A stretch of DNA of 64,000 bases from assembly GCF_041361345.1 (NCBI RefSeq), contig NZ_JBGKAD010000001.1, positions 1,488,001-1,552,000 on the forward strand, read 5' to 3'. A program made the translations under genes and the position numbers. A model generated the notes under the pieces. The model ran no database searches. It was not told the DNA's origin and saw nothing but the letters and a program-made list of their open reading frames with translations. This DNA is from Halobaculum sp. MBLA0147 (GTDB taxonomy: Archaea; Halobacteriota; Halobacteria; Halobacteriales; Haloferacaceae). Positions 6,298 through 24,150 of this stretch are shown in pieces; the stretch's first letter is position 1, and each line of letters begins with the position of its first letter.

Positions 6298-6405
6298 CGA
6301 CAGTCGAACCTGAGCTGCTGCACTCGATGAATCCTATCCGCACCGGTGCTACCTAACGAGCAATCAGCAACCATTAAACCGTTAGTTGGAAATGGGTATA
6401 TACCG

Positions 6406-8117
6406 ATGGTAGTCACTCTCTCGCTGAAAGTTGGCCGGACGAACCTCTTCGGTCACGACTGTAGCGTAGTTCTCGCAGAGGATGGAGAAATCCTCTATGG
6501 TGTCGAGGACGAGCGATTTAGCCGACAGAAGCACGGATCATTGCAGTTTCCGAAAGCCGCGATCGAGGATTGTCTGGCAACCACTGGGAAGGACCTGTCT
6601 GATGTCGACGAAATAATCGCCCCGTACGATCCGAGACATCAAGTCCAGTCGTATAAAAAAATATAACTGCCCTCTGGCAGTCTGAGTTATCGATACTAAA
6701 GAAGCTCCAACGGGCGGAGCAGGCTACCGAGGTGACGGTTCGGAACCGATTCCGGTTGGAGGATGTACTGCAGGACAACTTCGCACAGATCGACAGTGAT
6801 GTCCCACCGATCAGGTTTCTCAACCACCACCGCTGTCACGCTATCTCGGCAGCGTATCCATCTCCGGTCGATCTGGATCTTGTCGTCACTGCAGACCTAC
6901 GTGGAGAGGTTGACGCAACGGTGGTCTGGGAAGTGGGCGACGGAGAGGTCCACCGAAAAAAAACGTTCGAGTGGCCGAACTCACTCGGTTCGTTCTTTGG
7001 GGCTATCACCGAGTATCTCGGGTTTAGGGCGAACAATGGTGAAGGGAAGGTGATGGGACTGGCTCCCTACGGAGAGTCACGCCCCAAATTCTCGGACCCG
7101 TTGCGACAGCGGCTAGACTTCACCGCTGACTACGACGTGATGCCGCTGATAGAGGGTGCACGCATGGAAGACTACGTTGCGCGACTGGAATCGTGGTTTG
7201 GGGAGTCTCGGCGTTCATATGGTGACCCGATTGAGCAGCATCACAAAGATATCGCAGCGGTGGCACAGACCTGTTTGGAAAACGTGATGGAGAACCTCGT
7301 CCGACGTTGGATGGACGAGGTTGATGCTGACGCGTTGGGCCTAGCTGGTGGTGTCGCCCTCAATTGTAAAATGAACAAACACATACGAGAGTTGGATTGC
7401 GTCGATTCTGTGTTCATTCAACCAGTCGCAGGAGACGCTGGAGTCGCCGTCGGCGGGGCACTCGAACCCTTCGGCTTGACGGAGACATCACCTCTCGACA
7501 CGGTGTATATGGGCCCGTCGTTCTCAACCGAAGAGATCAGAGCCGTTCTTGAGCAGAACAAACTCGAATACAGTGAGCCGGACAATTTATATCAGCACGT
7601 TGCAAGGCGGGTCGCCGATGGAGAACTCGTCGGATGGTTCCAGGGATCACTCGAGATGGGACCTCGTGCACTCGGTAACCGGAGCATTCTCGCAGATCCA
7701 CGGGAGGAGAAATCACGTGATCGGGTCAACAAATACGTGAAACACCGTGAGGAGTGGCGTCCGTTTGCGCCGTCGTTGAAAGAATCGGCCGCATCAGACT
7801 ATTTTAAAAACGCTACGAAGGCTCCGTTCATGATACAGACATTCGAAGTAAAGTACAACGAAGCGTCTAATATTCCAGCTGTCTTACATCCGGAAGATAA
7901 CACCGCACGCCCGCAGACAGTTCGTGAAGACCAGAACCCCAGATACCACCGTCTCCTCTCGGCATTTGAGGATCTCACGGGGGTACCTGTCCTACTTAAC
8001 ACCTCGTTCAACGATAGCGGCGAACCTATCGTGGCTCAGCCACGCGAAGCAATCCGTGACTTCTTCTCGATGGGGTTAGACTGCCTCGTCCTTGAGGACC
8101 TCGTAGTGACGAAGTGA
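6406..8117 (+). pseudogene. NodU-type carbamoyltransferase, split by a single-base frameshift
   Basis: Two consecutive frames together encode a full carbamoyltransferase of about 570 residues. The first (6406-6666) has the N-terminal kinase-like motif NLFGHDCSVVL, with conserved His-Asp, and GVEDERFSRQKHG. The second holds NHHRCHAISAAYPS, GEGKVMGLAPYG, LAGGVALNCKMN, GDAGVAVGGAL and the C-terminal carbamoyl-phosphate domain QGSLEMGPRALGNRS, with KHREEWRPFAPS. The frame changes by minus one at a run of seven A at 6655-6661; eight A would restore a single frame. The family carbamoylates sugars or antibiotics. Third-position A/T use is higher than in the neighbours, a sign of transfer. The defect could be a real mutation, a slippery site or a homopolymer sequencing error. 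I chose ATG 6406 because the motif begins soon after. Confidence 0.85.
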
Positions 8118-9761: not shown

Positions 9762-10916
9762 GTGCTCTACTACGTCTCTAGTTCAGAGATTACTGGGAAA
9801 ATGGCACACTCTATTCAACAGATGCGGATGTGTGCTGCGTTCGCCCGCCAGGGTCAACAGGTCTGCTTCGTTCATCCAGCCCACGGTCGAAGTGTCTGTT
9901 GGGACGACATCGCAGACTACTACGGACTCGAGACCAGGTTCGAGATCGAAGATGTTCCAACGGTCGAAGGATTCCTCAACTCGGTCCCTTATGCGGAGCT
10001 ACTCTCGACATCAGTCTCACTGGCCGGTACACTCTTTTCGAAGTTGCTGACTGGCGCGATGGAACCATCGGACATCGTGTACTGTCGTGACTACTACGGA
10101 GCGTTTGTGTTCAACGAACTGCTCCGCCTGATCCCGGAACACAAGCGTCCAATCCTCGCCTTCGAACACCACGACATTATCTCTGCGAGAATGAAGCGTA
10201 GATTTTACCCGTCCATTGATGCCGTCATTCCGATCACACACGCTCTGGAGTCGTACGGGATCGACACCTTCGGTATTTCACCAGAGAACACGTTCGTCGC
10301 ACCTGACGGCGTCGATATCGACCCGTACGAGGGGAAACCAAAGCGAGCGGCACGCGAAGAACTCAACCTGCCGATAGATCGAACAATCGTGATGTACACC
10401 GGTCACTTGTACCCTGGCAAGGGGGTCAATGTCCTCGTCCGAGCGGCATCAAGCGTCGACGGACTGGTCTATGTAGTCGGGGGGCACGAATCAGACATCG
10501 AACGCGTGCAATCGTCGTTCGACGTACCGGAGAACGTAGTATTCACGGGATTCGTTCAACCCGCTTCAATTCCCTCGTATCAACTTGCGGCAGATGTTCT
10601 GGTCGCCCCGTACACGAACGAGTCACGCGATTTCATATCGCCGTTGAAGCTGTTCGAGTACATGGCAGCCGGGCGCCCGATCGTCGCGACGAGCAGATCG
10701 GTACTTAAAGAAGTGTTGACCGACGGGGAGAATGCACTCCTCGCCGAACCCGGCGACTCACACGAGCTCGCCGTTCGAATCAACGATCTCGTCCGCTCCG
10801 AGGAGTTGCGCGAGGAAATCGCGTCGTCTGCACGTGACACGGCCACGGAGTACACCTGGGACGAACGTGCGAAGTCCATACTCGAGTTCCTCGGAGTAGG
10901 TTCATCACAGTCGTAG
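9762..10916 (+). CDS. Glycosyltransferase family 4 (GT-B fold)
   Basis: The protein has 384 residues from a GTG start. The acceptor domain begins LYYVSSSEITGKMAHSIQQ and includes a His-rich loop FEHHDII. The donor domain has TIVMYTGHLYPGKGVNVLV, VVGGHESDIERV, VVFTGFVQPASIP, and the late GT4 motif SPLKLFEYMAAGRPIVAT. That last motif places it with the group that uses SPLKLFEYMA instead of the classic EX7E. Codon use is more A/T-tolerant than in the 4145 glycosyltransferase and resembles the carbamoyltransferase, so the two may have arrived together. Confidence 0.88.
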   Translation: MLYYVSSSEITGKMAHSIQQMRMCAAFARQGQQVCFVHPAHGRSVCWDDIADYYGLETRFEIEDVPTVEGFLNSVPYAELLSTSVSLAGTLFSKLLTGAMEPSDIVYCRDYYGAFVFNELLRLIPEHKRPILAFEHHDIISARMKRRFYPSIDAVIPITHALESYGIDTFGISPENTFVAPDGVDIDPYEGKPKRAAREELNLPIDRTIVMYTGHLYPGKGVNVLVRAASSVDGLVYVVGGHESDIERVQSSFDVPENVVFTGFVQPASIPSYQLAADVLVAPYTNESRDFISPLKLFEYMAAGRPIVATSRSVLKEVLTDGENALLAEPGDSHELAVRINDLVRSEELREEIASSARDTATEYTWDERAKSILEFLGVGSSQS

Positions 10917-10960: not shown

Positions 10961-11440
10961 TCACTTGCTTCGATACTGTACCAGTGTGACGATGGCGGCA
11001 GTAGACAGGGTGACGGCGAGTACCCGAGGGTCGGCACTCACGTACAGACCTGGGGTTGACGGTCGAATCCACACGGGGAACAACCAGAATCCCGCTGCTT
11101 CGTCGGCGAACACTCTGAACCCGTCTACGACGAGCGAAGTGAGCCCGCCGAAAATAAGCAGTGGATACACCTACCGCCACACCTCTCGGTCGAACAGAAC
11201 GGTAATTCCGACGGCGATACAGATGACGCCCCCAAGAGAGCCGATCGACGCGTAGCTGAACGGAACTCCCAGCGACTCCCGAACGACGGAGTCGGCTACC
11301 ACGAGTCTGATTTTCACCAGATCTGGAATCGCAGCACCCCCCATCGCGATAGGAATCCAGCGACGTGGAACCTCTACACGCCATCACGCGGCGGCCAACA
11401 GGACGTACGGGACGAGCACGTGTGTCAGCAAATCAGCCAT
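10961..11440 (-). pseudogene. MADLLTHVL-type membrane hydrolase (YdjM/DUF457-like) with two in-frame stops
   Basis: Reading from ATG 11440 gives MADLLTHVLVPYVLLAAA, then TGA (11386-11384). The frame continues with VPRRWIPIAMGGAAIPDL, then TAG (11173-11171), then VYPLLIFGGLTSLVVDGF and VWIRPSTPGLYVSADPRV to a natural stop. The paralogue at 18868-19350 aligns codon for codon without gaps. It has Gly where the TGA stands (GGA to TGA) and Glu where the TAG stands (GAG to TAG). The reading frame is otherwise preserved, so inactivation looks recent or the product is dispensable. The family is annotated as metal-dependent hydrolase-like inner-membrane proteins. The start overlaps the upstream OB-like gene by 8 bases. 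Confidence 0.85.
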
Positions 11441-11906
11441 CTTTCGCCTCCAGGGTGAGCCCTGCCGTGTCGATCTGCCAGTATCTGAACACCGTGACCA
11501 GGACGAGGCCAGCACCGAGGATTGACACGCCGAACTTGTACAGCCGCGATTCCCTCGAGGACTCGACCACGACGACCCGGTCTGCGGCGAGCACCCTATC
11601 AGGACGTACGACACCGAGAACCTGAACGGTTCCCCCGGGGCGGACAGCTGCGTCGAACGATCGGACACGGACCGTGTACGTCTCGCCCCGGGCATCGACT
11701 TGGACGTGCACCACTCGGTCGCCCACTGAGGTGACCGTCCCGAACAGGAACGTCTCTTTACCGACGTGTGCGTCGTAGTTCTTTGCCAGTTCGTTGTCGG
11801 TGGGATACGGCCAGCGATCTTCGAACATAGCGTCGTAGTGGATCCCCATCGCGACGGAACAGGCGACGGCTAGTCCGAGAACGACGAGACGGCATCGAAC
11901 CTTCAC
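11433..11906 (-). CDS. Two-TM protein with an OB-fold-like middle domain
   Basis: The protein has 157 residues from GTG. An N-terminal membrane segment or signal anchor (VVLGLAVACSVAMGIH) is followed by WPYPTDNELAKNYDAHVG and a beta-rich domain. That domain reads LFGTVTSVGDRVVHVQVD, then VRPGGTVQVLGVVRPDRVL, as in OB-fold nucleic-acid or cofactor-binding modules. A second membrane segment (LYKFGVSILGAGLVLVTVF) is near the C-terminus. It is paralogous to 19343-19822 over its full length and overlaps the next gene by 8 bases in both copies. This implies translational coupling and joint function with the membrane hydrolase. No enzymatic motif is visible. Confidence 0.75.
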   Translation of the reverse strand: MKVRCRLVVLGLAVACSVAMGIHYDAMFEDRWPYPTDNELAKNYDAHVGKETFLFGTVTSVGDRVVHVQVDARGETYTVRVRSFDAAVRPGGTVQVLGVVRPDRVLAADRVVVVESSRESRLYKFGVSILGAGLVLVTVFRYWQIDTAGLTLEAKDG

Positions 11907-12397
11907 ATCTCAGACTGCGAGAGATGTTAGTTTCAATTCCGCGCTCGCACGTACCACGGCAGGAGTAACACCGTTGCCTCAACTGGCGTAGACTACATCG
12001 GCATTGTCCTTCACAGTCGACCGAACGAGTCGAATACGACCGCCGATTGGTCACCAACGAGATCAGAGGGCCAGGTTGTAGAGACGTCGGTGAGCGTCCG
12101 AAGAGTTGTGTCACCGCCGTCGTGTAACTAAACGGGTTCCTCATCAAGTACCACACCACCGACGTGTGGAACGCTCAGAACCGGGTCACCGGCACTCCGA
12201 TCGGTGTCGTTCGCCGTGAGCAACGGTGGTACGTCTGTGTGAATCGTCGCCGATCCAAGCGTTCGACGACTGCGCCCTGGAGGAGCCACCGTTTCCACGA
12301 CTCTGAGTCCGGGTGAGGTCTCAGCCTCGCCTCAGTTGGGTGATCGTCTGGAGCCAGGTGATTGATAATGCTCCCTCTCCTACGCATCTGTAGATCG
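11907..12397. other. Intergenic stretch without a convincing gene
   Basis: About 490 bases between the OB-like gene and a hypothetical gene. Frames here are short and have no recognisable motifs. One plus-strand segment near 12130-12290 reads VWNAQNRVTGTPIGVVRRE, then RWYVCV. It faintly resembles transposase-type segments but is interrupted, so I do not call it. Confidence 0.35.
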
Positions 12398-12883
12398 ATG
12401 ACGCACGACCGTGGCGACATCGAATCGGAGTCAAACGAGCGATCTGTGTCACGACTGGCCGTGATCCTCGGAGGAACGGCTCCAGAGTCTGTCTTGTCGT
12501 CGTCACGATTTGTCACGGTGATACGGACACTGCCACGCTTGGTTCGTGGGTCGTTGCTCTACCGCTGGTTGAATGTAAATCTAGATTCGGCGGTAATCGT
12601 GATAGACCTCAGGGAGACGTACATCGTCGGACCGTTGCTTCGTGTGATAGACGAACTCAACGAGCGTATTCGTCCACACTGGGAGCGTTCACGTCTCCAA
12701 AGTATCGTCTACAGCGCCGGTTCCCAGATCAAGAGGTTTGGAGAGACGCGTGTCGGGGAACTGGTACTTGGCGTACTGGAGCCACCAGAGCCGATCGACG
12801 ACGAGGCAATAGTGAACGCTACGAACGGACATGATCGAAACTCCAAAGAAAACGAACAGATCGGAGCCAGTGATTCTGAGTGA
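12398..12883 (+). CDS. Hypothetical protein next to the glycosylation block
   Basis: The protein has 161 residues from ATG 12398 (an in-frame ATG at 12362 would add 12). I do not recognise a family. The central part is orderly, with SRLAVILGGTAPESVLSSSR, LYRWLNVNLDSAVIVIDLRE and GPLLRVIDELNERIRPHW. It looks like an alpha/beta domain with hydrophobic strands and amphipathic helices. The tail is polar and acidic (NGHDRNSKENEQ). It is convergent with the DUF4330 gene. Third-position bases are mixed, so it may be part of the transferred glycan island. Confidence 0.5.
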   Translation: MTHDRGDIESESNERSVSRLAVILGGTAPESVLSSSRFVTVIRTLPRLVRGSLLYRWLNVNLDSAVIVIDLRETYIVGPLLRVIDELNERIRPHWERSRLQSIVYSAGSQIKRFGETRVGELVLGVLEPPEPIDDEAIVNATNGHDRNSKENEQIGASDSE

Positions 12884-13038
12884 CGGCGACCGGGGACGTG
12901 TGATCTCCATCGACACGGATGGTTTATTTGTAGAAAGTATAAAGGAAGAATATTGTAGTAGTGTGATCCTTCCGGAACGACTGCTTCGACGGTCGGTACC
13001 ACACTCTGAGAAAAGAGACAAGAGGCTGACAAACGGGG

Positions 13039-14745
13039 TCACCCGCCGATCGACACGACCGTCGCCTCAATCGTGATTGTCCCGAGGTCCAGGGTAATCA
13101 ACTCTCCCTGTCGGACCGGTTCTCCTTTGAATCGGACGCCGTCGACGGTCTCCTGTACTTCGAGGCTGACGTTCATCCGCACGTCCCGCAGTGTCGGGTG
13201 ATCGAAGACGCCAAGTTCACCGTCATCTCCACGGATCAAGATCGTTGATGGGGTTCGCTGGACATCGGTGAGCCGGGCCAACACTTCCCCACCAGTGCGT
13301 TCTACCATCCCCGACTGTATCGACTGTGCGATGTCCGCACGAACCTCGTTGAGTCTGAGAGTGGCCGTCCGTGTCGCCGGAGTCCCCCGTCGGTTCGTCG
13401 TCCCGACACGCTCTATTTTGCCGGTGAATTCGTAAGCGTCTGTTCGAATCGCCAATTCATTTCCTTCTTTTACAAATTTGTTTCTAAACCTCGGTGCTTC
13501 ACCGTACGAGACAGTCCGTAGTGAGAGACCGACTGCGATCCGCTTGCGGTCTGGGTTACTCGTTCCATACGCGCTGACGTTCGTGACGGTAGCCGTCACG
13601 TCATTACCGACACGAACACTATCTCCGACGGAGAGTCGATCGGCCGTCTCCGGGTCGACTGTATCCGTGACGAGGACTTTCGTTCGGCCTGCAGCAAGTC
13701 CCCCGCCGATGTCGTCAATGGTCCCCGTGATCGTGTATTCGCCAGTGTCGAGCGTTAGTTGCTGGCCTCGTTGAATCGGTGTCGACCCGAATCGGAGCGT
13801 ACCTGCTCGACGGACAGCAGTGAGGTTGACCGATAGGAAAACGACCCGCCGGTCGGGCTCATCAGTCAGATAGACACGGTGGGTGTCAACCGTCGCGATG
13901 GTCTCATCGGCGACGGTGACCGTGTCACCGGGAGCGATCTGTCTGGCTCGTTTAGCTGGGAGAGTCGTACGGAGAACAACCGACTCAGTGCCGACGCGCG
14001 GGTTCTGGTTGATCGCCTCGATGCGGCCATCGAGTGTGAAGTCGGGGGCCGCCAGACGGAACGTCTGACCAGGGCGGATCTGTCGACCGCCGAATCGATC
14101 CACGCCGTTTCGCGCGAGTGTCGAGAGATTCAGTGTCGCATAGACGAGTCGGTTTGTCGGAGTCGTCGTCGGTTGGATGGTGACGTTCTCCACGACCGCT
14201 ACACGTCGGCCCGCGACGACAATTCGGTCGCCTTGATCAATTTCCGTCGCCTTTTTCACCGAGAGGACATCTCGAACGAGGACCGTAGTTGAACTCGTCG
14301 TGAGTTGCCGACCGCCGCCGAGAGCACGGATCTCACCGCTCACTTCGTACTCACCGGTGATCACGTCGAGAGTCCGGCCGAGGCGTGGGGGGACACCGTC
14401 GTATCTGATCGTGTCACCCGCGCGTTCGCCCGTAAGCGAGACTCGCGTGACTACTCGTGTACCACGGCTCGTCGGAGTCGTGTACACGTCCGTGATCCGT
14501 AGCTCGGCCGTGCCCGTGGGGCTGTACACGTCTCCGTCTTCAATCGCCTCAACGACGAACTGCGGTTGAACACCCAAGTCGAGCGTGGCGTTCACGGCCC
14601 CGAGTGTCGGATCGGATTCGTCACCGGATCCAACCAGTGCCGCGCCGGCGGCCGCAGCGACGAGAACAGCCAGCACTACCAACGCGTCAACCACGTTCAC
14701 GCGGCCGAACAAGTTGCCATCTTCGTCTATGAGTTCCACAGGCAC
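13039..14745 (-). CDS. DUF4330 protein with five tandem repeats, membrane anchored
   Basis: The protein has 568 residues from GTG. Residues 1-15 (PVELIDEDGNLFGRVNVVD) are the DUF4330 signature, and residues 18-39 form a membrane anchor. The rest is a run of five related beta-rich units at about 52-143, 153-245, 256-347, 356-447 and 463-567. Each ends in an RF-x-G...G-x-LTLDTGEYTITGTI-like strand pair: VSGEIRALGG, LDGRIEAINQ, ITGTIDDIGG, FTGKIERVGT, IEATVVSIGG. The bulk is predicted to face outside. DUF4330 proteins occur near polysaccharide or glycosylation genes. This one is divergent from the oligosaccharyltransferase gene, with 146 bases between, which suggests joint regulation. No catalytic residues are evident; a scaffold role is inference. 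Confidence 0.8.
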   Translation of the reverse strand: MPVELIDEDGNLFGRVNVVDALVVLAVLVAAAAGAALVGSGDESDPTLGAVNATLDLGVQPQFVVEAIEDGDVYSPTGTAELRITDVYTTPTSRGTRVVTRVSLTGERAGDTIRYDGVPPRLGRTLDVITGEYEVSGEIRALGGGRQLTTSSTTVLVRDVLSVKKATEIDQGDRIVVAGRRVAVVENVTIQPTTTPTNRLVYATLNLSTLARNGVDRFGGRQIRPGQTFRLAAPDFTLDGRIEAINQNPRVGTESVVLRTTLPAKRARQIAPGDTVTVADETIATVDTHRVYLTDEPDRRVVFLSVNLTAVRRAGTLRFGSTPIQRGQQLTLDTGEYTITGTIDDIGGGLAAGRTKVLVTDTVDPETADRLSVGDSVRVGNDVTATVTNVSAYGTSNPDRKRIAVGLSLRTVSYGEAPRFRNKFVKEGNELAIRTDAYEFTGKIERVGTTNRRGTPATRTATLRLNEVRADIAQSIQSGMVERTGGEVLARLTDVQRTPSTILIRGDDGELGVFDHPTLRDVRMNVSLEVQETVDGVRFKGEPVRQGELITLDLGTITIEATVVSIGG

Positions 14746-14891
14746 TCCCTCATTCCTCGGACGCGGCGATGGCTTTAAAAATATTGTGAAACGGTGGTCA
14801 GCGACTGCAGGCCCCTACTTCGGATATATTTTACATTTTTTGTAATTACCTTGTCCGATGTTCGGTCCAGTGTCTCAGTCATCCGACGACA

Positions 14892-17249
14892 GTGTCGACT
14901 ATCGTCGTTCCCGAAGCATTTAATCCCTATCTCACAACACTCAGTACTGTGGACGGCCGTGATGTAGCGGATCTGCTCGACGAGCGTCCCGACTTGGAGC
15001 CTGCTCTACGTGCAGTACTCGATACAGACCCCCCGTGGACGTTCGATGACATCGAAGTGGATTCGGGCGCATTCGGAGAGCTCGTGTCTCGTGGAGTCGT
15101 CGAAGAACACGAACACGGTTACCGTGTCGCCGACCCCGACGCCGTCCGATCGGCACTCGTCCGCCCAGACAAAAGTCAGGATGCGTCCGGCGACACTGAG
15201 AGCCGTTGGCTGACCCGTCGATCCTACTCGCTGGATCGAGAGAGCACCATCGCAGTCGCCGGTGCCCTCCTGTTCGTTGCACTTCTTCGGCTGATCTCAT
15301 ACCCCAAAATATTTCATGGGGAAGAAATCACACTATCAGGAAACGATCCCTATTACTACAGATTCTGGGTAGAGAGGATAATCGCTTCCGATCAGTTCAC
15401 CGCTACGGCACTGCCCGATCAAGTCACGAACGCGGAGCCGCTCTTCGTCGCGGTTCTCAGTTTCGCAGCGGACACTGCTGGAGGGACCGAGACGGCGACA
15501 GGTATCGTGCTCGCGTGTTATCCAGTCGTCGTGGCCGTCGTCACCGGACTGTTGACGTACACCCTCGTGACGACGGTAACGAATGATAAACGAGTAGCAC
15601 TCGCAGCCCTCTTGTTGTTCGCGCTCACTCCGGGGCACGCCTTCCGGACGAGCCTCGGCTTCGCAGACCACCACGCGTTCGACTACGTATGGCTGGTGAC
15701 CACAGTGCTAGCTGCCACTGTCCTCGTCGCCGAGACGACTCGCCACGACGCATCCGATCCGATACGAGCGGTACTCGGCAGCATAGGGATGGCTGTGGGG
15801 ATTGCTGGACAAATACTCGCGTGGGAAGCAGGGCCGCTACTTGTGGTTCCACTCGGGGCGTACGTGGCCATCGACGGACTACTCGGCGTGGACACTGGAC
15901 GCTCACCACTGAACACGCATCTCCCCCTCCTCGCTGGGATTGCAATGGGTGCCGTTCTCACCTGGACCGTCCACACGTCGTTCGGGTGGCATACGACACT
16001 GGTCGCCGCCGTACCGGCGTTGTTGGTGGTGGGAACAGTCGGTGTCTCCGTCGTCGCCGAGCTGTGTCACCGGCTTGGTCTTCACGTCGGAGTTCCGATC
16101 CTCGTGGAGCTTCTCGGTACAGGTGGTGCGGTGGGTCTCCTCGCCAGACGCTACCCCGACCGTTTGAATCGACTGGTAGTGGACGCCGAGACTCGACTGC
16201 TCCAAACGAACTCCCCCGCAGAGGCGGGGGGACTGTTCGGTGAGTCACTCGGATGGCTCCTCCTGTTTGGATTCGTGTTCGTTCTGGCCGTTCCATACCT
16301 CGTGACCAGCACATACCGTATGTTGGACCGTCCGGTCTGGGCGCCGCTAGTCGTGTACACGTGGTCGTTCGTTCTCCTCGCAGCGGTACAAATTCGATTC
16401 ATCGGAGAGATGGCACCTTTCATCGCCGTCTTCGCAGGTGTCGGGTTCGTGTCACTCGCGGCGTGGGTAGACATCATTGAGTCACCACCGGTGCTGACTG
16501 GAAGCGCACCAGAGGCCGTCCGCTCCCTCACCGTGCCGGATCAAGCCACACTCAAGTCACTCACACTGCTGTTGCTCCTCGTAGGAAGTCTAAGCTTCGT
16601 CCAAATCCCGGTCAAGACGAGCCAACTGACGTACACGGACGCACAGTACGAGGCTGCGTCGTGGATGGCGGGTGACGCTGAGGACCGAACCCTCGATTAC
16701 CCTGACAGCTACGTCCTCAGTCGGTGGGGAGACAATCGGTTTTACAACTACCACGTGAACGGGGAGTCAGCCTCCTTCAGGTTTGCACGAGCTACCTATG
16801 GCGATTTCGTGTTCGGGACGAACGGCGAACGATGGTACCAACGTCTCAAAGACCGGGCAGGGTACGTCGTCTTGACAGACGCCACCGTCGGAAACGACTC
16901 GACGCTTGGAACACGACTGTACAGGTCTGATGGGAGTATGACCGACAGTGCACCGGGATTACAACACTATCGGTTGGTACAAATCACTGGAGACGGGCGT
17001 TACAAGGTCTTTTCGCTCGTGCAAGGTGCACGACTTCACGGGACGGGACCAGCCAACGAGACGGTCACTGTCAAGACTGAGGTGACTGTCGGTTCGTATA
17101 CTACGACGTACACACAACAGACGAGAGTCAAGCCGTCTGGTGAGTTCAGTATCATCGTACCATATCCAGGAACGTACCGGGTACGGGGGACTGACGTACT
17201 TGTCTCCGAACGTGCCGTTCAGAGTGGAGCCCGTGTGACTGTCGAGTAG
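14892..17249 (+). CDS. STT3/AglB-like oligosaccharyltransferase with an N-terminal winged-helix-like domain
   Basis: The protein has 785 residues from GTG. Residues 1-92 are soluble and look like a winged helix (VADLLDERPDLEPALRAVL, then GELVSRGVVEEHEHGYRV). The GT-C membrane domain begins at about 119. The first external-loop acid motif is GNDPYYYRFW (150-159) and the second is GFADHHAFDYVW with Asp-His-His at 259-261. Both match archaeal short oligosaccharyltransferases. The peptide-binding WWDYG motif, expected near 612, reads SRWGDNRFYNY and is degenerate. The C-terminal 150 residues are beta-rich. Such enzymes move a dolichol-linked glycan to Asn of exported proteins. The altered motif raises doubt about standard sequon recognition. 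A phosphoglycosyl transferase gene follows. Confidence 0.82.
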   Translation: MSTIVVPEAFNPYLTTLSTVDGRDVADLLDERPDLEPALRAVLDTDPPWTFDDIEVDSGAFGELVSRGVVEEHEHGYRVADPDAVRSALVRPDKSQDASGDTESRWLTRRSYSLDRESTIAVAGALLFVALLRLISYPKIFHGEEITLSGNDPYYYRFWVERIIASDQFTATALPDQVTNAEPLFVAVLSFAADTAGGTETATGIVLACYPVVVAVVTGLLTYTLVTTVTNDKRVALAALLLFALTPGHAFRTSLGFADHHAFDYVWLVTTVLAATVLVAETTRHDASDPIRAVLGSIGMAVGIAGQILAWEAGPLLVVPLGAYVAIDGLLGVDTGRSPLNTHLPLLAGIAMGAVLTWTVHTSFGWHTTLVAAVPALLVVGTVGVSVVAELCHRLGLHVGVPILVELLGTGGAVGLLARRYPDRLNRLVVDAETRLLQTNSPAEAGGLFGESLGWLLLFGFVFVLAVPYLVTSTYRMLDRPVWAPLVVYTWSFVLLAAVQIRFIGEMAPFIAVFAGVGFVSLAAWVDIIESPPVLTGSAPEAVRSLTVPDQATLKSLTLLLLLVGSLSFVQIPVKTSQLTYTDAQYEAASWMAGDAEDRTLDYPDSYVLSRWGDNRFYNYHVNGESASFRFARATYGDFVFGTNGERWYQRLKDRAGYVVLTDATVGNDSTLGTRLYRSDGSMTDSAPGLQHYRLVQITGDGRYKVFSLVQGARLHGTGPANETVTVKTEVTVGSYTTTYTQQTRVKPSGEFSIIVPYPGTYRVRGTDVLVSERAVQSGARVTVE

Positions 17250-17365
17250 TGACCAAGATTCACGTTCAAAAAGGGGTATGACCGACCGAACCGTCTCACG
17301 ATACCGTCCTGCAACAGGATCACACTACGAAGTGGTTAAGTACCGAACGGACCCGATGTACACCG

Positions 17366-18787
17366 ATGAGTAGCCAGCGGTGGTACCGGCTCGTGACCCT
17401 GTTGGGAACGCTCGTCGTGACGGCGGTCATTGTCGTCACGGCCCGGTCCACCCCGGTGCAACAGCTCGCCACGAACATACCGGTGCTGTCGACGCTTCCG
17501 GTGAGACCACATAGTCAGTCCGAACTGTTCGTAGAAACTGCCATCGCGGTCGCAGTCGTTGGCGTCGTCTTCACACCGCTGTACAAGCCACAGCCACGGC
17601 GGATTCTCGACACTGCGAGTCTCGCGGCCTACCGGACGGTGTTCGCGATTACCATTCTCGCGACCGTCGGATACTTCGACTACACCTATCGACTGCCCCG
17701 ACTCACGCTCATCGTGGCAGCACTGATGCTACTCGTCACGCTCCCGACGTTGCTCATGCTCGTCAGACGCCGGCCTCGCGAGACGACGCGTGCGGTGGTG
17801 ATTGGGGACGACCCAAACCTGATCCAGACCGTCATCGGCGTAGCAGACTTCACAGTAGTCGGGTACGTCGCGCCGCCGACTGTCAGACAGAAGTTATCGA
17901 CGAGGTGGGATCGAGAGCAACTTGACGCGATCACGGACGGAGGCACCATCGGGGGAAAGGGATGTATCGGGGGAATTGCACAATTCCCCGAGGTGCTGAC
18001 CGAGTATGATATCGATACCGCAGTACTTGCATTCAAACAGTCGGATAGAAAGGAGTTCTTCGGGACAATCGAGGTGTGCCACCAACACGGTATCGACGCG
18101 ATGGTTCACGAGGCACACGCAGACACACTGTTGACAGACGAGATGGAGCGTGGACCGCTAGTCAGTGTCGTGGTGGAGCCGTGGGATTGGCAAGATCGGC
18201 TGGTTAAACGTGGGTTCGATATTGCGTTTTCCACAGTCGCGCTGACCGTACTGTCACCCCTACTGGTTGTGATTGCTCTCGCGATCAAACTTGAGGACGG
18301 CGGAACCATCCTGTACAGACAGGAGCGTACAGCCAACTTTGGGGATGTGTTTACTATTTATAAATTCCGGAGTATGATCGAGAACGCGGAGGCAGAGACG
18401 GGTGCAAAACTGAGTGAAGGAGACACTGGGAGTTGTGATCCACGGGTCACTCGTGTCGGCCGCGTTCTCCGTCGAACTCACCTCGACGAAGCACCACAGT
18501 TATGGTCTATTTTGATTGGAAATATGAGTGTCGTTGGGCCCCGTCCTGAGCGGCCGGCACTCGACGCCGACATTCAGGATGGTGTCAAGGACTGGCACAA
18601 GCGGTGGTTCGTCAAGCCAGGACTAACCGGGTTGGCACAGATCAACGACGCAACCGGTCACGAACCCGCCGATAAGCTCCGATACGACGTAAAGTACGTC
18701 AAGACACAGTCGTTCGAGACGGACATCAAAATCGTTCTGCGACAGGTGTTTCAGGTATTGGTCGATCTCTGGGAGATACTGCGGTGA
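17366..18787 (+). CDS. Bacterial-type sugar transferase (phosphoglycosyl transferase, WcaJ/PglC-like)
   Basis: The protein has 473 residues. The N-terminal half has several membrane segments and a Rossmann-like CoA-binding segment (TRAVVIGDDPNLIQTVIGVA). The C-terminal catalytic domain starts KRGFDIAFSTVALTVLSPLL, a reentrant helix. It continues with YKFRSM at about 332-337, the Asp-Glu pair in RTHLDEAPQLW, SVVGPRPERP and KPGLTGLAQI. These are the conserved residues of monotopic phosphoglycosyl transferases that load a sugar-1-phosphate on a polyprenyl phosphate. It probably starts a lipid-linked glycan that glycosyltransferases nearby extend. It lies 116 bases after the oligosaccharyltransferase gene on the same strand. 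Confidence 0.9.
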   Translation: MSSQRWYRLVTLLGTLVVTAVIVVTARSTPVQQLATNIPVLSTLPVRPHSQSELFVETAIAVAVVGVVFTPLYKPQPRRILDTASLAAYRTVFAITILATVGYFDYTYRLPRLTLIVAALMLLVTLPTLLMLVRRRPRETTRAVVIGDDPNLIQTVIGVADFTVVGYVAPPTVRQKLSTRWDREQLDAITDGGTIGGKGCIGGIAQFPEVLTEYDIDTAVLAFKQSDRKEFFGTIEVCHQHGIDAMVHEAHADTLLTDEMERGPLVSVVVEPWDWQDRLVKRGFDIAFSTVALTVLSPLLVVIALAIKLEDGGTILYRQERTANFGDVFTIYKFRSMIENAEAETGAKLSEGDTGSCDPRVTRVGRVLRRTHLDEAPQLWSILIGNMSVVGPRPERPALDADIQDGVKDWHKRWFVKPGLTGLAQINDATGHEPADKLRYDVKYVKTQSFETDIKIVLRQVFQVLVDLWEILR

Positions 18788-18867
18788 GACGAGCGGTACG
18801 ATTGTGTGATCGAAACCGCTACACAGATGATCCACAGGTTGGTTAGAAGAGCGAAATAAAACGTCGA

Positions 18868-19350
18868 TCACTCCACGTACCGAGTGTCAAGGAGCCATAC
18901 TACGCCGACAACGATACCAATGATTGCTGTGACACGTGGGTCAGAACTCACGTAGAGATTCGGCGTGAGTGGTCGAATCCACACCGGATACAGCCAGAAG
19001 CCGGAGGCTCCGTCGACGAACACGCGAAGCCCATCGAGGACCAACGACGTACAGCCACCGAATACCAGCAACGCGTACACTTCCTGCCACACCGACCGCT
19101 CGAACCAGACAGTGAACCCACCAGCAATCACTGCGACACCAGCGACAGACGCGATCGGATCATACTCAAACGGAACACCGAGCATAGATTGGATCACAAC
19201 CTCATCAAGCACCAGGTCCAACTTCATAAGATCAGGAATCGCCGCCCCACCCATCGCCACTGGAACCCACCGTCGTGGCACCGACCAATACCATCCACCG
19301 ACAGTCAGTACCACGTATGGAACGAGCACGTGGGTCAACAGATCAGCCAT
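18868..19350 (-). CDS. MADLLTHVL-type membrane hydrolase (YdjM/DUF457-like), intact copy
   Basis: The protein has 160 residues from ATG 19350. MADLLTHVLVPYVVLTVGG gives the N-terminal His-containing motif of the family, followed by AMGGAAIPDLMKLDLVL with the Pro-Asp pair. Three further hydrophobic segments and VWIRPLTPNLYVSSDPRV follow. This matches the inner-membrane metal-dependent hydrolase-like family, whose substrate is not established. It overlaps the upstream OB-like gene by 8 bases. A longer in-frame start at 19461 would run through the neighbour gene and is rejected. Its paralogue at 10961-11440 has two nonsense codons. Confidence 0.78.
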   Translation of the reverse strand: MADLLTHVLVPYVVLTVGGWYWSVPRRWVPVAMGGAAIPDLMKLDLVLDEVVIQSMLGVPFEYDPIASVAGVAVIAGGFTVWFERSVWQEVYALLVFGGCTSLVLDGLRVFVDGASGFWLYPVWIRPLTPNLYVSSDPRVTAIIGIVVGVVWLLDTRYVE

Positions 19351-19822
19351 CGCGAGCCTCCAGTCGAAGCGGTTGTGTCCTGACCTGCCACGAATTGAAA
19401 AACAACCCGAGAACGAGTGCCGCCCCAAGCACCGAGACACCGTACTTATATAACGCGGCACCGCCGCTGCGGTTCACCACAACAACCCGATCGACGATAA
19501 CTGACCGATCAGATGCAACTGTTCCAAGCACCTGCACAACACCACCAGGCTCGACAGAGGCACGCACATCCGTTGCCGTGAGCCGTAACGGACCGCGATC
19601 AGTATCAACGACGAGTTGCAGCGTTTCGCTATCTGCATCGACACTCACAACCTGCCCAAACAGGAACACAGTCTCGCCGACATACGCATCGTACTCACTC
19701 GCAAGCGCATCTTTCGTGGGATACGGCCACTCCTCATCATACGTCTGAGCATAATGCACCCCACTGGCTAACACAATTCCAACCACACACAGTGTCACCA
19801 CCACGCGGGGCCACGTGCGCAT
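19343..19822 (-). CDS. Two-TM protein with an OB-fold-like middle domain, second copy
   Basis: The protein has 159 residues. An N-terminal anchor (VVVTLCVVGIVLASGVHYA) is followed by EEWPYPTKDALASEYDAYVG, the OB-like domain (FLFGQVVSVDADSETLQLVV; VEPGGVVQVLGTVASDRSV) and a C-terminal membrane segment (YKYGVSVLGAALVLGLFF). The full-length paralogue is at 11433-11906. The conserved pairing with the hydrolase gene, the 8-base overlap and the flanking of the oligosaccharyltransferase block are the main clues to function. A link to cell-surface processing is only inferred. Confidence 0.76.
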   Translation of the reverse strand: MRTWPRVVVTLCVVGIVLASGVHYAQTYDEEWPYPTKDALASEYDAYVGETVFLFGQVVSVDADSETLQLVVDTDRGPLRLTATDVRASVEPGGVVQVLGTVASDRSVIVDRVVVVNRSGGAALYKYGVSVLGAALVLGLFFNSWQVRTQPLRLEARDG

Positions 19823-19917: not shown

Positions 19918-20205
19918 TCACCGACACAACAGCGACAACTCTTGCAGATGTGCCTGAATCGCCTGCCGGCCAAGCGGCGACAGCTGATACCGGGTCACAT
20001 TCCCACGCGGATAGTCCTCAAGATACCCCGCAGTCTCCAACCGCCCGAGGTGCTCGTACACCGTCGAGTCACTCACCGCGCCACCGCGACACTCACCGAG
20101 CCGTTCGATCACATCCACACCACTCGGACGCTGTGACACCCGCTGGCAGGCACACACCACGGCCAGCAAGTCCCGCTGGATCGCCGGCCGATCCAACAGC
20201 GTCAC
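19918..20205 (-). CDS. PadR-like winged-helix regulator
   Basis: The protein has 95 residues from GTG 20205. The frame extends to 20316 but the added residues are hydrophobic and unlike the family. The order LDRPAIQRDLLAVVCACQ, SGVDVIERL, SDSTVYEHLGRLETAGYLED and YQLSPLGRQAIQAHL is that of PadR/MarR-type winged helices common in haloarchaeal mobile elements. Helix 3 is SDSTVYEHLGRLETAGY and the wing is RGNVTRYQLS. It lies 137 bases downstream of the coupling ATPase gene, on the same strand, so it may regulate the element's transfer genes. Confidence 0.7.
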   Translation of the reverse strand: MTLLDRPAIQRDLLAVVCACQRVSQRPSGVDVIERLGECRGGAVSDSTVYEHLGRLETAGYLEDYPRGNVTRYQLSPLGRQAIQAHLQELSLLCR

Positions 20206-20342
20206 GGCCACCACCCCGATACACCCAGTACTCGACAAGCCAATACACCGAACCAACGGCAGGAACCAAATCCGATCATAAGCGAGCGAGCCGACCAATC
20301 GCGTCGACTCACCCACACCTGCGCGTACAAACCCCGGGCGCG

Positions 20343-22754
20343 CTAGTGGTCCGTCACCTGCGGCGTGGCCAACACGTCCTGTAACTGCGACATCGTGAAC
20401 ACTCCCGTCGCGCCAGGCGCATCCAGTGAAATATCACTCAACGGCGTCGTCGTCGCGTACGACGCGTCCAATCGTGGCGCCCCATCAGTCGGATCTGACA
20501 ACGGCCCCAAGATCGCATCGTGCGCAGCAGCGCGCGAGGAGGCCACCCACAACGCCTCTGACACCTCCAACTCAACAAACTGATCGTAATCGGCGGGCGC
20601 CGCCCGCCCGGTATCATGCGTCGCCCGTTCGGCCTCCCCACCAACAACCACCGCCCCAGCATCGTCAATCCCAGCCACGTCAAGGCGCCCATCAACACCA
20701 TCGGGCGCATAATACGACCGCGCTTCGACCACCGGCGACTCCGAGTCCCCAACATACTCACGCGCCACGTACCGCCGTAACGCCTCGACCAAGGCCGCAT
20801 GCGAGGCGGTCTCGTTGAGATCACCCGCATCCGGCCCGAACGTCACACCCTCACGCGCAAGATCATTCACCATGTCCTTCCCCTCGGGGGTCACCGTGTA
20901 CATCGTCCGGCGGAAATCATCATCCTCTTTCAACAGCCCAGCCTCGACACACGCTGCCACATCGTCAGTACTCGCCCCCACGGCGTCTCGCACCACCCGC
21001 ATACTGTCGAAGACGAGATCGAACTCCGCCCGGGTATATCGCTGTTCCATCGCGTTCAACACCACCTGTACTAATCGCAGTTGCGTGCCCGAGACCGGCG
21101 CCTCCGCAATCTCCTCGGGCGTACACTTCACGGCGGCCGCAACGGGCGGCACCCGCTCGCGATTCACCGCCGCCCACTCACCGTGACACCCCACCGCTCG
21201 CCGCAACCCCGCAAACGAGGGCGCGTACAACCGCCCACACTCACCACACGCAACCGCGTGTCGCTCCCCGTCATACGACACCCCACGCGGTAACGCATCA
21301 CAGAAGGGCAGCGTCGTCGTCTGTGGACTCGTTGGCGCGGACTCCGACTCCTCATCCGCTTCACTCTCATCACGCTCTTCGCCAAGCGGCACACAGTAGG
21401 CGTCACGACACGCGGCGACCCGCTGGCTAAATGCCTCGTCGAACCCCGCCCCAAGACCATCACCCCGCTCGGGATGCCCCGGCGGCAACGGCGGGGACTC
21501 GATCAACTCCAGCGTGGGCACATCCCCCTGAAACGTCGGTGGCGGCTGATACAACCACTCCCCATCTGATAACCCACGCAACATCCTCGCCACCTCAGCC
21601 GGCGAATCATGGACCGTGGCCAACGCATCCGCCAACCCCTCATCAGCGTCAACCCGCCCACACAGCTTCAACGCGGTCTCAGCGAGTAACTCTCCGTACA
21701 GTGGCTCGGTCCCGGCCGCTGGCGCGTCCGCTGCCTGCCGGGGATACTGCATCGCCGCCCATACCGACACACCCATCCCACGCCCTTCGGCGAGATACCG
21801 CTGCATGAGCGGCGTCAACCCCAGCGTCGCGAACTCATCAATCGCCACGAGCACGTCCGCCGGCGTCGCGCCGGCGGGCAATGTCTGCTGGCGCCGCTGC
21901 AACGCGAACCACAACTGCGCTACCAACAGATGCGTCACCGCACGTTGCTGGCTCACGCCGAGCGCCCCCACATCGATGATGATCGTCACGTCCTCACCGA
22001 GCCACTCACCGAACCGAAACGCCGGCGGGGCCCACGTCCGCGCAGCCTCACCACCGGCGGGGTCCGGCACGACATCAGCAAGCGTCGCCAAGACCGGATC
22101 ACCCGCCACCTTCTCGACACGCGTGGCCGCCCCCTGCATAATGCGGTCCACGAGTTGTTGATCACCAGCCGTCAACTGCCGGAGCAGATCCTCGAGCCGT
22201 GGCGAACTGACCGGCGGGCTCGTCCCGTCCATCCGCACCCGCTGAATTGCGGCCAACAGCTGGCGGTGGGGAAAGGCATCACTACCGTGCTCAGTGTCGA
22301 ACGCGGCCGCGACCAACCGCCGGATCACGTCCTCGGCCCGGATCGCATCATCGAAGTTCGGCTCCAACAACCGCAACACCTGCAGATACTGATCGATCCG
22401 GCGTTCGACAGCCAATGCACGGTCTAGCCCGGCCTCAAGTGCCGGCCGAACATCGAACAACCCCATCGCGGGCACGACCTCCCCGACTGGCAGGTACACC
22501 ACGTCCGAGAGGTCCCCGTCGACGGCATACAGACACCGTGCGAGCGTCTCCGGGAAGCCGTCGCCTTTCCCGTCGATGACGATCTGGGTGTGGTCGCCCG
22601 CGACGTGGCCACTCGTCAGCAACTGCTGTAAGAGGACGGACTTCCCGCTGCCGGTTTTGCCGCTGATCAGGGCGTGGACCGGCAGGTGGTCGGGATCGAT
22701 TCCAAGCGGATCGCCAGTGGCACGGTCAGTGCCGTACAGGATGTCTGCTATCAT
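20343..22754 (-). CDS. TraG/VirD4-HerA-type coupling ATPase of a mobile element
   Basis: The protein has 803 residues from ATG 22754, chosen because MIADILYGTDRATGDPLGID precedes the ATPase core directly. The Walker A motif is ISGKTGSGKSVLL (about 30-42) and Walker B is VLVAIDEFATLGL, followed by a TraG-like arginine-rich segment (RYLAEGRGMGVSVWAAMQYP). After about 480 the protein changes to a Cys pair (CGECGRLY), a winged-helix-like region (YTVTPEGKDMVNDL) and a C-terminal domain. That last domain, DGRLDVAGIDDAGAVVVGGE, resembles a restriction-endonuclease-like fold; this last point is tentative. Such ATPases drive conjugative DNA transfer in haloarchaeal plasmids and integrative elements. 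No relaxase or VirB4 partner is in the window. Confidence 0.82.
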   Translation of the reverse strand: MIADILYGTDRATGDPLGIDPDHLPVHALISGKTGSGKSVLLQQLLTSGHVAGDHTQIVIDGKGDGFPETLARCLYAVDGDLSDVVYLPVGEVVPAMGLFDVRPALEAGLDRALAVERRIDQYLQVLRLLEPNFDDAIRAEDVIRRLVAAAFDTEHGSDAFPHRQLLAAIQRVRMDGTSPPVSSPRLEDLLRQLTAGDQQLVDRIMQGAATRVEKVAGDPVLATLADVVPDPAGGEAARTWAPPAFRFGEWLGEDVTIIIDVGALGVSQQRAVTHLLVAQLWFALQRRQQTLPAGATPADVLVAIDEFATLGLTPLMQRYLAEGRGMGVSVWAAMQYPRQAADAPAAGTEPLYGELLAETALKLCGRVDADEGLADALATVHDSPAEVARMLRGLSDGEWLYQPPPTFQGDVPTLELIESPPLPPGHPERGDGLGAGFDEAFSQRVAACRDAYCVPLGEERDESEADEESESAPTSPQTTTLPFCDALPRGVSYDGERHAVACGECGRLYAPSFAGLRRAVGCHGEWAAVNRERVPPVAAAVKCTPEEIAEAPVSGTQLRLVQVVLNAMEQRYTRAEFDLVFDSMRVVRDAVGASTDDVAACVEAGLLKEDDDFRRTMYTVTPEGKDMVNDLAREGVTFGPDAGDLNETASHAALVEALRRYVAREYVGDSESPVVEARSYYAPDGVDGRLDVAGIDDAGAVVVGGEAERATHDTGRAAPADYDQFVELEVSEALWVASSRAAAHDAILGPLSDPTDGAPRLDASYATTTPLSDISLDAPGATGVFTMSQLQDVLATPQVTDH

Positions 22755-22839
22755 GGTGTATACGTATGAATGATTGAAATAGGGGAAACGCCACCCGCGC
22801 CACGTGTGATGACAGCGGGCGCGGAAGGCGGTTGTGAAG

Positions 22840-24150
22840 CTAGTCGTCGTCGTCGTCACCGGGCGCTTGGTCAGTGTCCCACCCCGAACTCCGTTGGTCA
22901 GCCAGGGTGGTGGCGCTGTCAGGCGCCGGCGTGCGATCCACGTGTGAACTCTGCCGCTCACTCCGCCGGCTGGGGACATCCGAGGAGACCAGCAGCGTCG
23001 TCAGCTTTTCCGCTGACACAGTCGGGTACTTCTCGGCTGACAACCCGGGATACCCCGCGCGGAACCACGACTCCGTGGGCGTGACACCCTGGAGGAGACG
23101 CCGCGTGTCGGCTGGGCCGTACCGCGTCGACGAGAGGGTGACACTCGCCCGTGGCGTGCCGAACAACACGTTGAGTGGTTCAGTCGCCACGGTCTCGTCC
23201 ATGATGGTGAGATCCGACGCGACCGGCGTCCACACCACCGTCCGAACCTGGAAGAAATCCGGCTCCATCGGTTCCTGATAGCGGTCGTACTGTGCCGGGA
23301 AGTGACTCCTCCCCCACCGCAACGGGACAAACGAGAGCGCCTTGCCGGCATACCCCAGCAGGACCCGGAGTGGCTCAGGATTGTCCGCAACACAGGCCTC
23401 CCGGACGATGGCCAGTTCACTGTTGGCAACGGGGTCGTGGTGGAGTGACATCGTCACCACCATCGGCGTGTGTGAACTGCCCTCCTGGAGCATCGAATCG
23501 AACAGCCGGTCAGGCGTCTCCGGTCCATCCGATGCATACGGTGGCAGGTATCGTCCAGTCGGGTCATCCTCAGATACCGTTGCCTCGACGGCTTCGACAC
23601 GGGTGGCCGTGGTGAGGACCGCTGGTGGGTCCGTGCACTCGATGGTGTGTGTGGCACCGATCGTGTCCTCGAGCGTCGCCGCGAACTGCTCGCGTTTTCG
23701 ACCCGGGACATCAACGTACAGCTCGAACTGTCCGTCCTGGGCAACACGGTGGACGGTGAGGCCACTCTGTGCAGTCGACTGCGCACGGTACCGATCCACG
23801 ACCGCGAACACCACAGTCGGTGTCACGACGACCGCTGCCAACCCGACACTTGCTGACAACAGTGCCTCACTGGCGGCATTCGCCCACGGCGTAAGCACCG
23901 GGACCGATCCCGACCCGAGTGTGGCCGCCAGGGCCACTCCACCGGCAAGTGTGAATGCCCCGAGGATGAGGCTGCCGGTGACCGCGAGCGCGATGCCCCA
24001 CCCGATGAGACCAGGATGTGACCGGACCGGGGTGGAGACCGTCTTGACGAACTCCCGGGTGACTTCACGAAGCGCTTCGTCTGCCGCATCGCTCAACTCA
24101 CTCCCACTTCGGGGAGTGATGCGGATCATGTGATCGTTGTTCTCTGACAT
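22840..24150 (-). CDS. Two-TM membrane partner of the coupling ATPase
   Basis: The protein has 436 residues. Residues 1-45 are polar. Two strong hydrophobic hairpins follow at about 50-75 (LIGWGIALAVTGSLILGAF) and 85-115 (ALLSASVGLAAVVVTPTVV). Then comes a cytoplasmic alpha/beta region with FELYVDVPGRKREQFAATLED and VVWTPVASDLTIMDETV. The tail is Ser/Asp-rich and ends in six acidic residues. I do not recognise a named family. Its position 85 bases upstream of the coupling ATPase and its membrane topology suggest it anchors the ATPase or is part of the transfer channel. That role is inferred. Confidence 0.7.
   Translation of the reverse strand: MSENNDHMIRITPRSGSELSDAADEALREVTREFVKTVSTPVRSHPGLIGWGIALAVTGSLILGAFTLAGGVALAATLGSGSVPVLTPWANAASEALLSASVGLAAVVVTPTVVFAVVDRYRAQSTAQSGLTVHRVAQDGQFELYVDVPGRKREQFAATLEDTIGATHTIECTDPPAVLTTATRVEAVEATVSEDDPTGRYLPPYASDGPETPDRLFDSMLQEGSSHTPMVVTMSLHHDPVANSELAIVREACVADNPEPLRVLLGYAGKALSFVPLRWGRSHFPAQYDRYQEPMEPDFFQVRTVVWTPVASDLTIMDETVATEPLNVLFGTPRASVTLSSTRYGPADTRRLLQGVTPTESWFRAGYPGLSAEKYPTVSAEKLTTLLVSSDVPSRRSERQSSHVDRTPAPDSATTLADQRSSGWDTDQAPGDDDDD

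Follow-up and report, generated by a model that had tools for sequence, protein, structure and literature searches.

A paired OB-fold and YdjM-related membrane protein gene unit in haloarchaea, duplicated beside surface-glycan genes in Halobaculum sp. MBLA0147

The window, that is the whole stretch of 64,000 nucleotides analysed here (Halobaculum sp. MBLA0147, contig NZ_JBGKAD010000001.1, positions 1,488,001 to 1,552,000 of the forward strand), carries two cassettes in the same orientation, each consisting of a gene encoding a small OB protein and a gene encoding a membrane protein, hereafter the partner. Genes encoding a DUF4330 protein, a c104-family homologue, an STT3-like protein and a phosphoglycosyl transferase (PGT) are located between them, and a glycosyltransferase gene adjoins copy 1 (Table 1). 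An earlier note on this DNA had described both the two same-strand cassettes and the 8-base overlap of their genes, and both descriptions were confirmed, with the same overlap sequence each time. Its description of both cassettes as carrying both genes held only in part: OB1, OB2 and the partner of copy 2 are intact open reading frames, while the partner of copy 1 is a pseudogene, which leaves copy 2 as the only complete pair.

Table 1. Features of the duplicated cassettes and of the adjoining genes (positions are those of the window)
Feature	Position	Strand	Remarks
GT4-type glycosyltransferase adjoining copy 1	9762..10916	+	PF13692/PF00534
Broken membrane partner of OB1, pseudogene	10961..11440	-	in-frame TGA and TAG
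8-base overlap ATGGCTGA, decayed pair	11433..11440	-	
OB1, intact paralogue of OB2	11433..11906	-	157 aa; GTG start
Homologue of c104, a conserved haloarchaeal family (no Pfam family)	12362..12883	+	match E=1.2e-11 at 12467-12745
DUF4330 protein	13039..14745	-	568 aa; PF14221 E=1.5e-26
STT3-like GT-C protein, not canonical AglB	14892..17249	+	PF02516 and PF18079
Polyprenyl-phosphate sugar-1-phosphate transferase (PGT)	17366..18787	+	PF02397 E=4.1e-59
Intact membrane partner (MADLLTHVL...), second gene of the pair	18868..19350	-	160 aa; diverged YdjM relative
8-base overlap ATGGCTGA, intact pair	19343..19350	-	
OB2, first gene of the intact pair	19343..19822	-	159 aa; TM-OB-TM

In the partner gene of copy 1, the first stop is a TGA (11384-11386, codon 19) and the second a TAG (11171-11173, codon 90), and apart from these a single frame runs across 160 codons. 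Recoding of the stops was considered and set aside, as these sites are occupied by Gly and Glu in the intact copy, not by Cys or pyrrolysine. The two copies share 60% DNA identity across the whole pair, and at the protein level OB1 and OB2 are 46% and the partner copies 61% identical. For both proteins, the closest sampled relative of each window copy was the other window copy (95/85 in the OB tree and 98/96 in the membrane protein tree), indicating a true but old duplication. Substitutions between the partner copies (0.33/0.23/0.58 at the first, second and third codon positions) were concentrated at third positions, indicating that the copy 1 partner evolved under selection for the greater part of its history. 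This would also be expected if both copies were functional and specialised for different steps, with the copy 1 stops being sequencing errors or very recent. That explanation is very unlikely, as two separate stops are present in one short gene and a second, independent case was found in genome G014, where the partner carries a frameshift beside an intact OB gene (L120 9472-9982). A close relative in Haloquadratum walsbyi J07HQW1 (L205) is apparently intact.

The earlier note had called the block between the cassettes an oligosaccharyltransferase block, and in the sense of N-glycosylation this name was not borne out. The STT3-like protein has SRWGDNR where canonical AglB has SWWDYGH, and S-x-W-[GD]-x-N-R is present in nearly all members of its family covering the site. 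Its score against TIGR04154 was 144.5 bits, not reaching the curated cut-off of 450, and it shares 28% identity over 233 residues with the canonical AglB of the genome, which is encoded elsewhere (C1:2965033-2968044, 832 bits, SWWDYGH). The WWDYG motif helps to build the Ser/Thr-binding sequon pocket (PMC8342417). Since the motif is absent from the STT3-like protein, transfer to N-X-S/T sequons should not be assumed, and STT3-like genes of this type should not be annotated as N-oligosaccharyltransferases. The PGT scored 282.7 bits against TIGR03025, slightly below the cut-off of 295.55. No mention of DUF4330 was found in the open-access papers searched.

For the OB protein, the predicted model of OB2 (pLDDT 93) comprised a TM helix at residues 3-31, an OB barrel at about residues 48-117 and a second TM helix at residues 122-144, and the barrel in this model was five-stranded (strands 51-117). 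Residues 34-120 aligned with solved OB domains with a VIA Z of up to 11.2 (2.3 Å, 83 residues). The OB domains of RPA14/Ten1 and of aspartyl/asparaginyl-tRNA synthetases have a barrel like that of OB2 (VIA Z about 10-11, 2.0 Å over 80 residues), but their identity to OB2 is about 15-20% and the barrel of OB2 lies between two TM helices. CcmE, the membrane-anchored OB protein of the CcmABCDE complex, was also among the Foldseek matches of OB2. The OB domain is probably extracellular and anchored by the two TM helices, since arginines at both ends of the protein suggest that it faces outwards. Nothing points to nucleic-acid or haem binding by OB2. A role as nucleic-acid binder was rejected, the protein being membrane-anchored and neighbours of such a kind being absent. 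A search of plasmids with OB2 gave no match.

To describe the pair across haloarchaea, 292 genomes of the class were surveyed, and both genes were found in 119, only the OB gene in 2, only the partner gene in 7 and neither in 164. The OB gene adjoined the partner gene in 102 of the 106 partner hits for which 20-kb regions were fetched, and named carriers of pair loci included Haloarcula, Halorientalis, Natrialba and Halosimplex. The OB/partner pair is a real haloarchaeal unit. The two proteins being routinely found apart, which the earlier note had named as one of the outcomes that would speak against its proposal, did not occur in this survey. The four partner hits without an adjoining OB gene were two fragments and two g11 genomes (loci L158 and L159), each of which has an OB-like match on another contig. 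Of the proposal of an obligate pair, the near-constant joint and adjacent occurrence stands, while strict obligacy is doubtful, because the partner is broken in copy 1 of the window and in G014 with the OB gene still open; in the case of copy 1, however, copy 2 supplies an intact paralogous partner. No description of the pair, nor of YdjM in haloarchaea, was found in the open-access papers searched.

The loci were divided into type A (those closest to the window, 55 regions) and type B (the remainder, 46 regions), and 20 random regions served as controls. An overlap of exactly 8 bases was found in 49 of the 55 type A loci. Among type B, 40 pairs had a placeable start and 25 of these showed the same overlap length, and this conservation across families excludes a chance overlap. 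The distances of OB and partner proteins were correlated (Mantel r 0.76 overall, with 0 of 2000 permutations as high, and 0.72 within type A). The source genome itself carries a third, intact pair, which is of type B (C1:2058582-2059586; L065 8472-9752), and the neighbours of this pair are ordinary genes (HtpX-like, AAA-type kinase). At two loci in other genomes (L130 6899-13207 and L161 7146-12910), two same-strand pairs about 5 kb apart represent independent local duplications.

A gene encoding the STT3-like protein, PGT, DUF4330 protein or c104 (the module genes) lay no more than about 10 kb away in 49 of 55 type A regions, 1 of 46 type B regions and 0 of 20 controls, and the link extended to 16 of the 20 type A genera. 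The corresponding counts for NDP-sugar and other glycan genes were 47/55, 27/46 and 0/20. At the genome level, 55, 54 and 52 of the 56 type A genomes carried STT3-like, DUF4330 and c104 genes, compared to 44%, 36% and 33% of the genomes without type A (Fisher p 6e-16 to 3e-18, with related genomes counted as independent), and genomes with only type B were depleted in all three. Overall, STT3-like, DUF4330 and c104 genes were present in 158, 138 and 129 of the 292 genomes; c104 and DUF4330 were found together in 127, with 2 and 11 genomes carrying only c104 or only DUF4330, respectively. The gene order was STT3-like, OB, partner in Haloarcula; OB, partner, DUF4330, c104 in f4 genomes; and UppP-like, OB, partner, STT3-like, DUF4330, c104 in f7 genomes, where the label UppP-like is a reading of a sequence signature and not a profile match. 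The proposed nearness to glycosylation genes was therefore supported by the neighbourhood survey for the window's type, which is tied to STT3-like, DUF4330 and PGT genes, and the opposite outcome, a pair located mostly away from such genes, did not occur for this type. The type A pair looks like an undescribed helper part of the surface-glycan machinery, and the surface-maturation function suggested in the earlier note is a putative one.

The link has exceptions: 6 of the 55 type A loci lack any module gene at a distance of up to about 10 kb, and neither pair gene is present in 77 of the 158 STT3-like genomes, so the module does not require the pair. Together with type B pairs, including L065, often lying among ordinary genes, the latter count would suit a module of general envelope or stress function that is carried along in variable surface-glycan islands and stands outside the glycan chemistry. 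Such a module is nevertheless unlikely, because the link is specific, type A occurring with STT3-like, DUF4330 and c104 in 52 or more of its 56 genomes whereas type B occurs without them, and because the operon order recurs in three families.

The predicted model of the copy 2 partner was all-helical (pLDDT 91), and a comparison with solved structures (Foldseek, VIA) gave no clear relative, which does not show a new fold. Searches of the window pair against Pfam and NCBIfam profiles returned nothing usable, and the window partner did not match PF04307 (YdjM), the gathering cut-off not being reached. In the partner family, PF04307 was matched by 79 of 84 members (E<=0.01), while 5 of 84 matched PF00882 (zinc-dependent phospholipase C) weakly, and the third partner of the genome scored 36.2 bits against PF04307 (cut-off 29), indicating that the window partner is a diverged YdjM relative. 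YdjM proteins are putative metal-dependent membrane-bound hydrolases, and in the pair family the YdjM gene lies downstream of the OB-TM gene. Five H/D positions are conserved in the family alignment (H7, D40, H67, H102 and D106), and the YdjM family annotation suggests that they may form a metal site. Nearly all of them are retained in type B, which shares them with YdjM, and H7, D40, H102 and D106 in f4 type A, often with H67. In contrast, the window partner retains H7, D40 and D106, with A in place of H67 and S in place of H102; H67 and H102 are lost in the branch of Haloarcula (g27), f7.g32 and the window, and H7 is lost in addition in g42 and g48. The membrane hydrolase of the earlier note is therefore doubtful for the window branch: with the profile missed and two of five residues gone, a working hydrolase is unsupported, and the partner should not be annotated as one.

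The main rival explanation holds the partner to be a catalytically active membrane phosphohydrolase by which polyprenyl-phosphate-linked intermediates are cleaved or recycled, and the OB protein to be the extracellular subunit that binds its substrate. The PF04307 and PF00882 matches, the residues kept in type B and by many type A members from f4, and the UppP-like gene adjoining the pair in f7 genomes are in line with it. It is rather unlikely, as the genes remain paired and module-linked despite the loss of H67 and H102 in the window branch and of H7 as well in g42 and g48.

The best reading, with a probability of about one half, is that the pair is a membrane complex, non-catalytic in the window branch, that serves a surface-glycan pathway started by the PGT and finished by the STT3-like protein. 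The OB protein and its YdjM-type partner would form a two-protein membrane complex, and the type A complex would be accessory to the lipid-linked assembly of surface glycans. In this pathway, the PGT would put a sugar-1-phosphate onto a polyprenyl (dolichol) phosphate carrier, glycosyltransferases would lengthen the lipid-linked glycan, and the STT3-like GT-C enzyme together with DUF4330 and c104 would transfer or polymerise it outside. The partner probably descends from a metal-dependent phosphoesterase-like enzyme, and the window-branch partner, lacking two conserved histidines, is most likely a non-catalytic scaffold or escort, although the loss of two histidines leaves room for another activity.

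The haloarchaeal AglB/STT3 N-glycosylation (Agl) pathway shares with this region an STT3-like GT-C protein that has an AglB_L1 domain and is surrounded by glycosyltransferase and NDP-sugar genes, but the window has a bacterial-type PGT, its STT3-like protein lacks WWDYG, and the canonical AglB lies elsewhere. The synthesis of acidic EPS in Haloarcula hispanica (HAH_1661-1667, AepG; PMC5467301, PMC9943897) likewise concerns a surface polysaccharide that needs a dolichol-phosphate sugar; the genes named in those papers are different ones, and type A operons were found in other Haloarcula. Little is known of haloarchaeal exopolysaccharide synthesis (PMC9943897). Tentatively, and with the odds against it, the STT3-like protein, PGT, DUF4330, c104 and the OB/YdjM-like pair might even constitute one undescribed haloarchaeal surface-glycan machine apart from AglB N-glycosylation. 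A former membrane metalloenzyme would then have turned into a structural subunit of this machine, beside an OB protein. A widespread gene set in which a non-canonical STT3 is joined by a putative dedicated accessory pair offers testable gene candidates in the genetically workable Haloarcula.

With regard to origin, the GC content was 53-65% in the first 28 kb of the window and 68-73% beyond, with a sharp step. In the trees, the window copies nest among f3/f7 sequences, while the host genome belongs to f1; type A was found in few other f1 genomes and in none of three further congeneric genomes that were searched, two of which are incomplete. These observations are consistent with a glycan island acquired horizontally, followed by duplication: the pair may have come in with the island and been duplicated, after which the partner of copy 1 would have decayed.

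The left 28 kb contain glycan genes and mobile-element-like genes and look like an island. Beside copy 2, a gene group (19918-24150, minus strand) encoding a PadR-like winged-helix protein, an 878-aa FtsK/TraG-like ATPase and a 436-aa membrane protein is reminiscent of the border of a conjugative or integrated element. A carbamoyltransferase gene (6346-8117, plus strand) is apparently split into ORFs 6346-6666 (N-terminal-like) and 6732-8117, in the second of which the PF02543 match starts only at profile position 122, and is possibly a second pseudogene. A sulfatase-family gene (PF00884; 2511-3836, minus strand) is also located in the island, and members of the same cluster occur near other pairs as well, as would be expected if the surface glycans were sulfated.
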